Assembly: GCA_025350865.1 (NCBI GenBank) | Contig: JANXWZ010000164.1 | Location: 1-52,596, forward strand | Origin: Rhodanobacteraceae bacterium | GTDB taxonomy: Bacteria > Acidobacteriota > Terriglobia > Terriglobales > Acidobacteriaceae | DNA length: 52,596 nt | Direction: 5' to 3' | Shown here: positions 39,992-45,474 of the stretch, piece by piece | How positions within the stretch are numbered: position 1 is the first letter of the stretch | Layout: each line of letters begins with the position of its first letter | Program-made: the position numbers and the translations under genes | The notes under the pieces: generated by a model | The model's database searches: none | Seen by the model: only the letters and a program-made list of their open reading frames with translations | Told to the model about the DNA's origin: nothing

Positions 39992-39995
39992 AAAC

Positions 39996-40108
39996 AAGGC
40001 GTAACGCGGATAAGACGGACAGGACGGATAAAACAGATGCATTGCGGATCATTGGTCGTTGCTTTATCCCACTTATCCGCCTTATCCCATTAATCCGCGT
40101 TACGCCTT
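39996..40108. terminator. Hairpin family C, copy 3, after the ligase gene
   Basis: AAGGCGTAACGCGGAT (39996-40011) pairs exactly with ATCCGCGTTACGCCTT (40093-40108); a long, partly paired middle contains more GGAT/ATCC steps. It follows the ligase stop by a few bases. The next gene is on the same strand, so only one transcript ends here. Confidence 0.55.
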
Positions 40109-40136
40109 GCTTTGTTTTCGGCCATCCATGTACAGT
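40107..40136 (+). promoter_or_regulatory. Possible promoter for the aromatic operon
   Basis: TTGCTT (40107-40112) and TACAGT (40131-40136) are 18 bp apart and resemble sigma-70 -35 and -10 boxes. Transcription would start a few bases before the leader peptide ATG (40146). Weak matches; inferred. Confidence 0.3.
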
Positions 40137-40145
40137 ATTCCAAGA

Positions 40146-40223
40146 ATGATCATCCGCTTCAGCCCGTCGTTTACGTTCCGCTACTGGCCCTTTACGGGCC
40201 ACATGGCGGCTTTGGCGAAGTAG
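40146..40223 (+). CDS. Leader peptide rich in Phe/Tyr/Trp upstream of trpB
   Basis: A 25-codon frame, ATG 40146 to TAG 40221. The first 14 residues are MIIRFSPSFTFRYW and the next are PFTGHMAALAK. It contains four Phe, one Tyr and one Trp, with F-R-Y-W-P-F clustered in the middle. No strong ribosome site precedes it. The Tyr-Trp codons (40182-40187) lie directly before a TGGCCC/GGGCCA hairpin. The Ala codons GCG GCT (40206-40211) can pair with the left arm of the terminator at 40276-40302. Content, position and pairing fit an attenuation leader. Confidence 0.65.
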   Translation: MIIRFSPSFTFRYWPFTGHMAALAK

Positions 40224-40310
40224 ATTGTCCTCTGAAAGCAACCGATTCAGACGAGAGATCGAAACAGACCAGATGAGCCGCTACCCCGACCGGGAAGCGG
40301 CTTTTATATT
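40204..40310 (+). promoter_or_regulatory. trpB: Transcription attenuator: alternative antiterminator and terminator before trpB
   Basis: Terminator: AGCCGCT (40276-40282) pairs with AGCGGCT (40296-40302), with an inner CCC/GGG step, then TTTTATATT. Antiterminator: 40204-40212 (TGGCGGCTT) can pair with 40275-40283, which includes the same left arm. The two pairings exclude each other. A ribosome held at the Tyr/Trp/Phe codons would leave 40204-40212 free (antiterminator, read-through); a ribosome at the stop codon would cover it (terminator). Inferred from sequence pairing; not tested. Confidence 0.65.
40276..40310 (+). terminator. Rho-independent terminator in the trpB leader
   Basis: A 7-bp stem (AGCCGCT/AGCGGCT) with an inner 3-bp extension and a TTTTATATT tail, ending 15 nt before the trpB ATG. 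Its position inside the leader rather than after a gene is what points to attenuation. Confidence 0.8.
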
Positions 40311-40324
40311 GCGAGGAACTTGAT

Positions 40325-41577
<1,253 letters not shown>

Positions 41578-41578
<1 letters not shown>

Positions 41579-42342
41579 TGCCGATTGAGTTCAAACACAA
41601 GCCGGGGATTGTGGCGTACCTCACGGCGGGCGACCCTGACCTCGCAACCACGCGCGACATCGCATTGGTCGCTATCGATAACGGTGCCGATGTGATTGAG
41701 TTGGGCGTGCCATTTAGCGATCCGTTGGCCGACGGCCCGGTGATTCAACGGGCAAGCGAGCGGGCCGTAGCACGCGGAACTCGCCTGAGCGATGTACTGG
41801 CGCTTGCTAAGGAACTGCGGGCTGCCAGACCAGCATGCGGACTGGTGCTGTTCAGCTATCTGAACCCCGTCGTACGCATGGGTATGAGGCAGTTTTGCGC
41901 GGCGGCGAAAGAGGCTGGTGCGGACGGCGTACTGCTCACCGACATGATTGTGGAAGAGGCTGGGGAGTATCTGGCGGAGATGAAAACAAACGATCTTGCG
42001 CCGATCTTCCTTGCGGCGCCGACCAGCCCTGATGCGCGTTTGAAGGCGATTGGCGCGGCTTCCAAGGGATTTGTCTACGCGATTTCGCGCGTCGGCATTA
42101 CGGGCACGCAGGATAAGGTGGCGAGCGATGCGCCGCAACTTGTGGCTCGGCTGCGGGAGTTCACTTCCCTGCCGATCGCGGTTGGATTTGGTATTTCGAA
42201 CGCCGAGCATGTCAAGGCAGTAGGCGAGTTCGCGGATGCTGCGATCATTGGAAGTGCGCTGGTCGCGTTGATCGAGAAGACGGCCCCGGAAGCGGCGGCA
42301 AAGGCAGTTGGAGAGTTTATCAAAGGGTTGCGAGCGGGTTAG
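41578..42342 (+). CDS. trpA: Tryptophan synthase alpha chain
   Basis: A 254-residue TIM-barrel protein that cleaves indole-3-glycerol phosphate and channels indole to TrpB. Catalytic Glu in VIELGVPFSDPLADGPVIQ, catalytic Asp in GVLLTDMIVEEAGEY, phosphate loop in AVGFGISNAEHVKA. Start GTG 41578 overlaps the trpB stop. Co-transcription with trpB is certain from this overlap. Confidence 0.96.
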
Positions 42343-42412: not shown

Positions 42413-42676
42413 ATGGAGATAGCGGACTGGCGGAAGAAGATCGATGAGATGGACGAGGAGATCGTTCAGCTTATCAGCAAACGTGCCGAGGCGGCCAAGG
42501 CCATCGGCGAGTTGAAGCAGAAAAGCACGTTGCCGGTGTACGAACCAGCGCGTGAGACAGAAGTCTTCGAACACGTGAAGAGCATCAACCCGGGCCCGCT
42601 CTCCGATGAGCAGTTGGTGGATGTATACATCCGCATCATCGACGTGATGCGGATGCTGCAGCGTCGAGATTCGTAA
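42413..42676 (+). CDS. aroQ: Chorismate mutase, AroQ type
   Basis: An 87-residue all-helical chorismate mutase converting chorismate to prephenate. IDEMDEEIVQLISKRAEAAK and YEPARETEVFEHVKSINPGP follow the AroQ pattern, with Arg, Lys and Glu of the active site present. A stand-alone domain, not fused to prephenate dehydratase or dehydrogenase. AACGAGGAGTGG lies just upstream. 70 bp after trpA. Confidence 0.92.
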   Translation: MEIADWRKKIDEMDEEIVQLISKRAEAAKAIGELKQKSTLPVYEPARETEVFEHVKSINPGPLSDEQLVDVYIRIIDVMRMLQRRDS

Positions 42677-42744: not shown

Positions 42745-43764
42745 ATGATAGTTGCAATGCAAGATAACGCAGCAGAGGCACACATTCAGGCAGTGATCGA
42801 GCGGATGGTCGAGCTCGGGTTCAACGTACACCGCACCACCGGCGCGAACCAGACGATTCTTGCTGGGGTCGGCTCGCCCGCACACTTTGAGGTGGCAGAA
42901 TTTACCGTACTGGCGGGCGTTCATAATGCCTATCGCATCAGCTCGCCGTACAAGCTGGCGGGGCGCGGATTCCGGCCTGAAGGCACGACGATCACGTTTC
43001 CGAATGGCGTAGTGGTTGGCGGCACGGAAGTGACACTGATGGCGGGGCCGTGCTCGGTCGAGAGCCGCGAGCAGATTTTGATCAGCGCAAAGATTGTGAA
43101 GGCCGCCGGCTGCCAGTTCCTGCGCGGCGGAGCGTTCAAGCCACGCAGCTCGCCGTACAGCTTCCAGGGGATGGGCCTTGAGGGTCTCAAGCTTCTGCGT
43201 GAAGTCTCGAACGAGACCGGTCTGCTGGTCATCACTGAGGTGATGGAGATCTCGCAGATCGAGCTGATGCTGCCATACATCGACTGCTTCCAGGTGGGCG
43301 CGCGCAACATGCAGAACTTCAACCTGCTGCGTGAGCTGGGCCACGTGCGTAAACCGGTGCTGATGAAGCGCGGCATTGCGGCGACGATCGAAGAGGTCTT
43401 GCTCTCGGCCGAGTACATCCTGAGCGGCGGCAACTACGACCTGATGCTGTGCGAGCGCGGCATCCGCACCTTCGAAACCTACACCCGCAACACGATGGAC
43501 ATCTCGGCCATCCCCGTGCTGAAAAAGCTGACGCACCTGCCCGTCTTCGGCGACCCCTCGCACGGCGTCGGCATTCGTGACCTGGTGTCGCCGATGGCGC
43601 TGGCCAGCGTTGCCGCGGGAGCCGATGGCCTGCTGATGGAGATGCACCCGAATCCTGATAAGGCGATGAGCGACGGCGCCCAGAGCCTGTACCCGGAGCA
43701 GTTGGAGAAGCTGGTGGCGAAGCTGCGGATGCTTGCTCCGGTGGTGGGTCGGACGGTGGCGTGA
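42745..43764 (+). CDS. aroF: 3-deoxy-7-phosphoheptulonate synthase (DAHP synthase)
   Basis: A 339-residue DAHP synthase of the AroA-I-beta type, the entry enzyme of aromatic amino-acid synthesis (PEP + erythrose 4-phosphate). An N-terminal ferredoxin-like domain (about 1-75; VIERMVELGFNVHRTTGANQ) is the feedback-inhibition domain seen in Thermotoga-like enzymes. Catalytic motifs: MAGPCSVESREQ, FLRGGAFKPRSSPYSFQGMG, HLPVFGDPSHGVGIRDLV and metal-binding His/Glu/Asp in LLMEMHPNPDKAMSDGAQSL. GGAG precedes ATG 42745. Confidence 0.95.
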   Translation: MIVAMQDNAAEAHIQAVIERMVELGFNVHRTTGANQTILAGVGSPAHFEVAEFTVLAGVHNAYRISSPYKLAGRGFRPEGTTITFPNGVVVGGTEVTLMAGPCSVESREQILISAKIVKAAGCQFLRGGAFKPRSSPYSFQGMGLEGLKLLREVSNETGLLVITEVMEISQIELMLPYIDCFQVGARNMQNFNLLRELGHVRKPVLMKRGIAATIEEVLLSAEYILSGGNYDLMLCERGIRTFETYTRNTMDISAIPVLKKLTHLPVFGDPSHGVGIRDLVSPMALASVAAGADGLLMEMHPNPDKAMSDGAQSLYPEQLEKLVAKLRMLAPVVGRTVA

Positions 43765-44021: not shown

Positions 44022-44626
44022 GTGAATTCCGGCTTTGCAAACGATCCTCACACTCAGGCTGGGAGCGATTGTCCCAAGAACTGCTTCGGCATTGTCAGTT
44101 ACGACCAACTGCATGACGTCGAGCGCTCGTACAGCATACGGCGAGCGGCACAATTGGAAGACCGAGCAGCAACAGGTGTCTTTGACGCTTCGCATTTGAA
44201 GACGGTTCACCAGTTTCTGTTTCAGGATCTTTTCCCTTGGGCCGGAGAATTCCGGGTTGTAAATATCCACAAAGGCAATTCGCCATTTGCTCCTCCGTTC
44301 AATATCCTCTGGACACTCAACGATGTGCTGTCGAAATTGAGGTCGGAGCGATATGTGGTCGGCTTAACGCCGCTTGATTTGCAAACCGGGCAGCGTTCTA
44401 TCTGGGCGAGATCAATGCGATCCACCCGTTTCGCGAAGGCAATGGTCGTACGCAACGGGAGTTCATCCGGCAACTTGCAGTGCAAGCCGGTCACCCGCTT
44501 TCGTGGTACGGATTCACTCAGCGGCAGATGGTGGAGGCTTCCATTGCAAGCCACATGATGGGCGATTGCACGGGACTGGCTGCAATAATCAAGACTGCGC
44601 TTCACTCTTCGGAGGAGTCTGCATGA
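44022..44626 (+). pseudogene. Fic-family AMPylating toxin, interrupted by a frameshift
   Basis: The first frame (from GTG 44022) encodes FLFQDLFPWAGEFRVVNIHK up to YVVGLTPLD, then turns into an unrelated reading. The frame one base back continues with FANRAAFYLGEINAI, then HPFREGNGRTQREF, the full Fic catalytic motif, to TGA 44624. Restoring one T in the run 44378-44380 would join both parts as a VbhT/Doc-like protein of about 200 residues. The stop overlaps the tyrA start (ATGATGA). A 1-base deletion, a phase-variable tract or a sequencing error are possible. Confidence 0.8.
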
Positions 44627-45474
44627 TGGAGAAGATTGCCATTGTCGGGACAGGGCTAGTCGGCGGGTCCGTCGGCCTTGCGCTGCGTTGTGCCGGTTTC
44701 AGCGGCGAGATTGTCGGCGTTGATTCGAGCGAGGCGGAGACAGCGGCGGCTTTGGCTGCGGGGGCGATCTCGCGAGTGGGCGGCTTTGAGGATGTGGTGG
44801 CGTCCGATGTGGTCGTGCTGGCTGTGCCGGTGATGGGGATTCTGGACTGGATGGAGCGGCTGGCTTCGCGGCTGGGACCGGGCCAGTTGCTGACCGACGT
44901 GGGGAGCACCAAGCTGGCGATCAGCTGTGCAGCTAGGGCTCAGTTTGGCAGCGCCGGGCAGGCAAGGTTTCTCCCCGGCCACCCGATGGCTGGCAAGGAA
45001 TCCGGCGGCGCGGAGCTCGCCGAGGCGACACTCTTCGACGGCGCGATGTGGCTTTTCACGCCCGTTGCCGACGAGACTGCGCTTGAGGCTGAGTGGCGCA
45101 GTTGGGTGACAAAGTTCGGGGCTCGGACGATGGATTTGGATGCCGCTCGTCATGACCAGATCTGCGCCTGGGTCAGCCACTTGCCGCAGATGGTTTCTAC
45201 GGCAATGTCGGCAATGTTCGAGGATGAATTTGCGGAGCAGCCAGAGTTGGCAGCGGAGTTTCAGGCGATTGGTGGACGGGCTTTGCGCGAGATGACTCGG
45301 CTGGGTGCCAGCCCGTACAGCATGTGGCGCGATGTCGCGCACACTAACACACAGCCGCTGGCCGCGACGCTGTTTGCGCTGGAACAGAGACTGGCGCATC
45401 TGCGCGAGAACCTGAAAACTCCGGAGTTGAGGACGGAGTTTGAGAAGGCGAATGCGTTTCGTCGGGGGAAGTAG
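44623..45474 (+). CDS. tyrA: Prephenate dehydrogenase
   Basis: A 283-residue NAD-dependent enzyme that makes 4-hydroxyphenylpyruvate, the tyrosine precursor. The Rossmann motif is IAIVGTGLVGGSVGLAL; the substrate His/Glu region is FLPGHPMAGKESGGAELAEA. Starts at 44623 (MMEK) or 44626 (MEK), overlapping the Fic stop by 4 nt. With no chorismate mutase domain attached, it works with the separate aroQ gene upstream. Confidence 0.95.
   Translation: MMEKIAIVGTGLVGGSVGLALRCAGFSGEIVGVDSSEAETAAALAAGAISRVGGFEDVVASDVVVLAVPVMGILDWMERLASRLGPGQLLTDVGSTKLAISCAARAQFGSAGQARFLPGHPMAGKESGGAELAEATLFDGAMWLFTPVADETALEAEWRSWVTKFGARTMDLDAARHDQICAWVSHLPQMVSTAMSAMFEDEFAEQPELAAEFQAIGGRALREMTRLGASPYSMWRDVAHTNTQPLAATLFALEQRLAHLRENLKTPELRTEFEKANAFRRGK

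Follow-up and report, generated by a model that had tools for sequence, protein, structure and literature searches.

The window, a stretch of 52,596 nucleotides of acidobacterial DNA, raises the question of how an operon for aromatic amino acid synthesis is controlled from the short region ahead of its first gene. Five genes lie in a row on the forward strand, as do all features described here: trpB, encoding the tryptophan synthase beta subunit (40325..41578; TIGR00263 over cut-off); trpA (41578..42342; TIGR00262 over cut-off), the start of which overlaps the trpB stop; aroQ, encoding chorismate mutase (42413..42676; PF01817 and TIGR01807 over cut-off); aroF, encoding DAHP synthase (42745..43764; TIGR01361 over cut-off, PF00793); and tyrA, encoding prephenate dehydrogenase (44623..45474 from the first of two ATG codons; PF02153, PF20463). 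Upstream there is a gene for an ATP-dependent DNA ligase. Between aroF and tyrA, a frame at 44022-44558 gave no Pfam match at 1e-4; similar frames occupy this interval at two other loci, L084 and L101.

The leader of trpB is very likely a ribosome-mediated transcription attenuator of the classic kind and, judged from sequence, this operon of soil Acidobacteria is very probably switched on by a ribosome that senses a shortage of Phe/Tyr/Trp. We infer in the same way the start site, the stalling of the ribosome, the switch itself and the identity of the amino acids sensed.

Leader frame and promoter ahead of trpB

The first-pass annotation had described a 25-codon frame with six aromatic residues and Tyr-Trp at its middle, and the window sequence confirms it. 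The frame (40146..40223) runs from the ATG at 40146 to the TAG at 40221-40223 and encodes MIIRFSPSFTFRYWPFTGHMAALAK, with four Phe, one Tyr (40182-40184) and one Trp (40185-40187). The putative sensor block, Phe-Thr-Phe-Arg-Tyr-Trp, occupies 40170..40187, its two Phe codons lying at 40170-72 and 40176-78.

Searching 150 genomes of the family yielded trpB in 133, and searching 62 of the same genus yielded it in 61. Among the 60 same-genus genomes in which the region upstream of trpB was read, the leader was present in 59 (58 distinct and one duplicate), while the sixtieth reads N. Sixty-seven distinct trpB leaders were aligned (alignment A1), giving a peptide consensus of approximately MTxxSSRFxFTxRYWxTVAASAE. 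With the sensor Trp set as position 0, Phe at -5 and Arg at -2 are present in 67/67 leaders and Tyr at -1 in 61/67, being replaced in the other six; Trp holds its position in 65/67, and the remaining two leaders carry a Trp six codons ahead of Tyr. Most have a single Trp, rather than a run, at the sensor position. The Phe codon at -5 (window 40170-40172) is TTT in all 67 leaders, and TTT accounts for 64% of Phe codons in the leaders versus 41% in trpB; a constraint at the nucleotide level or a slow-codon effect is possible.

Outside the genus, a leader containing Arg-(Tyr/Phe/Ser/Thr)-Trp was found at 9 of 96 trpB loci, by a pattern that misses leaders built differently. Of 86 loci that lack the leader and offer 500 nt or more of upstream sequence, 66 have a trpF-like frame that ends shortly before trpB (five of the 66 were checked, and all were PF00697), which suggests that trpB is there part of a longer trp operon. 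The leader itself seems to accompany trpB operons that stand apart from the other trp genes and are split from trpF.

A sigma-70-type promoter is predicted at 40107..40136, with TTGCTT at 40107-40112, an 18-nt spacer and TACAGT at 40131-40136; the leader frame begins 9 nt after the -10 box. In 65 of the 67 leaders the pattern TTGnnn-N17/18-TAnnnT is present and its -10 box ends 7-11 nt ahead of the leader ATG; when the letters of these 50-nt stretches were shuffled, 0.17% gave such an arrangement, which rules out a chance promoter. Judged from the window alone, the evidence for the promoter is weak: a consensus scanner reported neither a promoter nor a terminator above its thresholds. Shine-Dalgarno-like motifs precede the leader ATG in only 4/67 leaders but precede a possible trpB start in 66/67; together with the fixed distance of the promoter, their scarcity suggests that the leader mRNA is nearly leaderless, with a transcript start predicted at about 40143. 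The first-pass annotation had named a transcription start downstream of 40146 as fatal to its proposal; the predicted start lies just upstream of that position. A strong imperfect inverted repeat at window 39994-40112 (fold z-score -7.3) extends into the -35 box; it has 34 BLAST matches in its own genome, itself included, and is a dispersed repeat.

Alternative hairpins and the position of the ribosome

Four segments of the leader can pair in alternative ways. Hairpin 1:2 (40178..40209; arms 40178-40190 and 40196-40209), identified by fold and covariation, spans the Arg-Tyr-Trp codons. Segment 2 (40204..40215) can instead pair with the left arm of the terminator, 40275-40283, as the putative antiterminator 2:3. 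A post-stop hairpin, UCUGAA...UUCAGA (40231..40251; A1 columns 118-173), appears in both the window fold and the alignment, and an intrinsic terminator (40275..40305) is formed by segments 3:4 at 40275-40303 followed by a U run. Its stem contains one mismatch and its tail, UUUUAUAU, extends to 40309, leaving 15 nt before the trpB ATG at 40325, in agreement with the T-tailed stem annotated before. The alternative pairing proposed then, 40204-40212 with 40275-40283, is likewise present, with nine pairs of which two are G-U. A common core, CCGC / GCGG / GCCGC / GCGG, is found in all four segments, which is what pairings that exclude one another would require.

In alignment A1, 91.3% of cells were paired across 1:2, the post-stop hairpin and 3:4; 13 of these 26 pairs changed on both sides, compared with a shuffled mean of 5.6, and their covariation score was 0.152 versus 0.095 for shuffled alignments and 0.032-0.075 for slid partners. 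Helix 3:4 was 96.9% paired in the 67 leaders, with compensatory changes and a U run, and the post-stop hairpin was the least regular (79.9%); the latter may hold segments 2 and 3 near each other or serve as a pause hairpin. The third base of the Tyr codon covaries with its partner, forming C-G in 40 and U-A in 19 of 67 leaders, the other 8 being unpaired. The antiterminator 2:3 was paired in 86.0% of cells compared with 31.9-43.9% for slid partners, although it did not covary independently (double changes in 3 cells, versus 3.8 on average in shuffles) and its core hardly varies. The comparison of relatives that had been suggested as a check therefore upholds both frame and alternative pairing by conservation, whereas the call for covariation is borne out for 1:2 and 3:4 and not for 2:3. 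Mean energies were -19.4 kcal/mol for 2:3 (-13.9 with segment 2 shuffled), -15.2 for 1:2 and -19.2 for 3:4.

To examine the position of the sensor codons relative to segment 2, the leading edge of the ribosome was placed 12 nt past the first base of the codon in the A site. GCGG begins 12 nt past the Trp codon in 59/67 leaders, and the five-base core ends 10 nt ahead of the stop in 59/67; by this model, segment 2 would be left exposed by a ribosome stalled at the sensor and masked by one that has reached the stop. Aromatic codons made up 248 of 432 codons within the permissive zone, where a stalled ribosome would open 1:2 without covering segment 2, versus 134 of 1118 elsewhere in the leaders.

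Under the proposed mechanism, transcription would begin a few nucleotides ahead of the leader ATG. When charged Trp-tRNA (probably also Tyr- and Phe-tRNA) is scarce, the ribosome would stall in the Phe-x-Phe-x-Arg-Tyr-Trp block and occupy the 5' arm of 1:2; segment 2 would then pair with the left arm of the terminator, and with 2:3 formed, trpB-trpA-aroQ-aroF-tyrA would be transcribed. When charged tRNAs are plentiful, the ribosome would reach the stop codon and cover segment 2, and in the absence of a ribosome 1:2 would form and hide it; in either case terminator 3:4 would form and transcription would end.

Minimum-energy folds were computed for these states; to mimic a ribosome on Trp, 14 nt were hidden, counted from the start of the Trp codon. 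With the ribosome on Trp, folds of the nascent RNA contained the antiterminator in 54/67 leaders and lacked it in 13/67, whereas folds of the full-length RNA contained the terminator in 62/67 and the antiterminator in 4/67. With the ribosome at the stop, the terminator formed in 67/67; without a ribosome, 1:2 formed in 63/67 and the terminator in 67/67. The trpL leader of E. coli K-12, treated alike, adopted the same four fold states. The folds rule out that the antiterminator is thermodynamically dominant in the full-length RNA, here as in E. coli trpL; in both, it would have to win by forming first. The conserved frame, the hairpins, their spacing and the covariation of 1:2 and 3:4 support the earlier reading of this leader as a classic attenuator.

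Related elements and the amino acids sensed

A covariance model (R1) built from the 67 trpB leaders matched at least once in 62/62 same-genus genomes at E up to 0.1. With E limited to 0.01, it matched 117 of 250 family genomes, which represent 40 of 79 genera. Two or more matches were present in 57/62 same-genus genomes among the matches listed, some of them weak or on the opposite strand. The genome of the window contains two copies, before trpB and before aroK; the second (L160:1449-1611, on another contig) encodes the leader MHNSFSSYWWYPAAQVGPVCIS, with Tyr-Trp-Trp-Tyr codons. One further match in this genome lies on the opposite strand, inside the aroK terminator. Upstream of its trpE, no aromatic-rich frame was found within 600 nt, R1 finding only the trpB and aroK copies.

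Eighty further elements were chosen by hand, not at random, among the R1 matches listed: 20 second copies from the same genus, each of which precedes aroK, and 60 elements of other genera. The promoter arrangement described above was present before aroK in 32/32, trpB in 15/15, aroQ in 6/9 and aroF in 8/24. In each element, whichever frame near the start of the model was richest in aromatic residues was treated as the leader, a choice that favours aromatic content. In tallies over the 67 aligned leaders plus the 80 chosen elements, Trp occurred anywhere in the leader in 82/82 before trpB (8 genera), 32/32 before aroK (5 genera) and 21/24 before aroF (16 genera), but in 0/9 of the leaders before aroQ-first, chorismate mutase operons (3 genera, possibly with shared ancestry), all nine of which carry Phe and Tyr. 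The choice of frame does not explain this lack of Trp. Chorismate mutase feeds Phe and Tyr only, so the codons of the aroQ-first leaders fit the branch, although aroF, a gene of the common pathway, comes after aroQ at 6/9 of these loci. The idea that a mixed aromatic leader would suit the window's trpB-trpA-aroQ-aroF-tyrA operon thus gains from the way codon content tracks the downstream gene in related elements.

A second model (R2) drew on 100 matches from 99 sources, with one partial opposite-strand match included and L209 left out. Within the order it matched in 121 of 200 genomes; for the phylum the figure was 37 of 247, of which 15 lie outside the family. Eight matches assigned outside the family were inspected; seven were aromatic leaders and one was not a leader. 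In another family, three related genomes (L284, L285, L286) carry FYFYFYF, which resembles a textbook alternating Phe/Tyr sensor, and a terminator-like stem before pheA; one of the three loci starts inside the leader. A YFYFYYFY leader precedes aroF, and three leaders precede aroQ-pheA, two of which contain Trp; these aroQ-pheA and aroF leaders of other families are L283, L287, L288 and L291. Two matches were set aside: L289 precedes a serine-dehydratase-like gene, and L290 proved to be an in-family match without a leader.

These comparisons bear on which amino acids are read. Trp is most likely sensed, Tyr and Phe are likely sensed as well, and the predicted attenuator probably reads more than Trp. 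A special case of this explanation, in which Trp is the sole signal, Tyr persists on account of the hairpin and Phe is there by chance or through a constraint on the nucleotides, is less probable but deserves serious weight. It is favoured by the presence of Trp in every trpB leader, whereas the hairpin can persist without Tyr: in two leaders (L101, L103) Thr takes the place of Tyr and the opposite arm shows a matching change, indicating that Tyr is not indispensable, and the invariance of the TTT codon hints at a constraint on nucleotides. However, the Phe and Tyr codons sit where stalling would work, the aroQ-first leaders have both residues without Trp, and distant relatives place FYFYFYF before pheA and YFYFYYFY before aroF.

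Arrest by the nascent peptide is improbable. Here the peptide RFxFTxRYW would itself cause the stall, possibly together with an aromatic amino acid in free form, as for TnaC, and codon supply would be minor. Peptide context is indeed kept beyond the aromatic codons: the ratio of nonsynonymous to synonymous single-base differences was 1.72 versus a neutral 3.43 (codons 2-12 in 32 distinct leaders of 23 codons), and the Arg at -2 is invariant, yet hairpin 1:2 also fixes the Arg-Tyr codons and the sensor residues vary with the target gene. TnaC has a conserved Pro directly before its stop and a Trp 12 residues earlier; no conserved Pro before the stop was found in the 67 trpB leaders of alignment A1.

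Still less probable is a ligand-binding riboswitch or protein-binding leader to which the frame is secondary, as the conserved post-stop hairpin might suggest. The distance from Trp codon to GCGG is 12, 18, 21 or 24 nt, in steps of three, in 66/67 leaders (37 in L088), whereas gap runs after the leader stop are of any length, and the aromatic codons are placed by ribosome geometry. Rfam 15 gave no match at gathering score in the window or in 14 related loci, trp leader and T-box included; at E up to 10, three matches fell within 40000-40400, all far below gathering score and none credible. A chance frame before an ordinary terminator, suggested by modest single-sequence statistics (window fold z-score -1.9, with 8/200 shuffles folding equally well), is refuted by conservation in 59 of the 60 same-genus genomes read and by covariation; it is this conservation that raises the signal well above chance, the evidence of the single window being moderate.

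Relation to known attenuators

The attenuator favoured here is classic in mechanism; what is new is its setting, a mixed sensor in a single block, the near-leaderless start and reuse at several genes with changed codons. As in the trpL and pheL leaders of Enterobacteria, codons for the regulated amino acids lie in the 5' arm of 1:2, 2:3 would serve as the antiterminator and 3:4 as the terminator, and the likeness to E. coli trpL extends to its fold states. Those leaders contain Trp-Trp or, in pheL, runs of Phe, whereas here one Trp stands beside Tyr and Phe codons; they precede trpE or pheA, while the present elements precede trpB, and also aroK, aroF and aroQ, are predicted to be near-leaderless and recur under one model at several genes with sensor codons changed. 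A search of the open-access literature found no aromatic attenuator in Acidobacteriota; an earlier description elsewhere is possible.

A precedent for the near-leaderless start is the Trp-sensing trpL of Sinorhizobium meliloti, the leaderless transcript of which starts at the leader ATG with a 5' end reported from experiment (PMC7298713). That leader precedes trpE(G) in an alphaproteobacterium (PMC7298713), and the start in our case is a predicted one. The Acholeplasma motif uORFC-13-1 is an upstream frame ahead of aroF that contains one or more Phe codons and adjoins a terminator; attenuation was proposed for it (PMC8632094). It shares these features with the present leaders but belongs to another phylum, has a ribosome-binding site, comprises 24 sequences and is reported only ahead of aroF, and the account of the motif describes no Tyr-Trp block (PMC8632094). 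In uORFC-8-2, ahead of cysS in Rhodobacterales, tandem sensor codons likewise lie in the first stem, a terminal U run follows and conservation sufficed for detection as a structured motif, although the amino acid is cysteine, the gene encodes a tRNA synthetase and the phylum is again different (PMC8632094).

The chances appear even to us that Acidobacteriota hold an old, portable attenuator module that serves the entire aromatic pathway: one homologous RNA before trpB operons, aroK, aroF and aroQ/pheA, sensing Phe, Tyr and Trp jointly, retuned by codon exchange in a fixed block, having lost Trp where the first gene serves Phe/Tyr only, and coordinating a branched pathway through near-leaderless mRNAs with no shared regulatory protein. 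The presence or absence of Trp by downstream gene would form a natural codon-swap series, by which the evolution of attenuator specificity becomes testable, as does the ability of one block to read three amino acids. In a collection of named genomes, the element was found at 36/80 trpB loci, including those of Granulicella rosea (DSM 18704), G. aggregans, Terriglobus roseus (DSM 18391) and T. albidus, and leaderless translation of regulatory peptides is predicted in Granulicella and Terriglobus strains.
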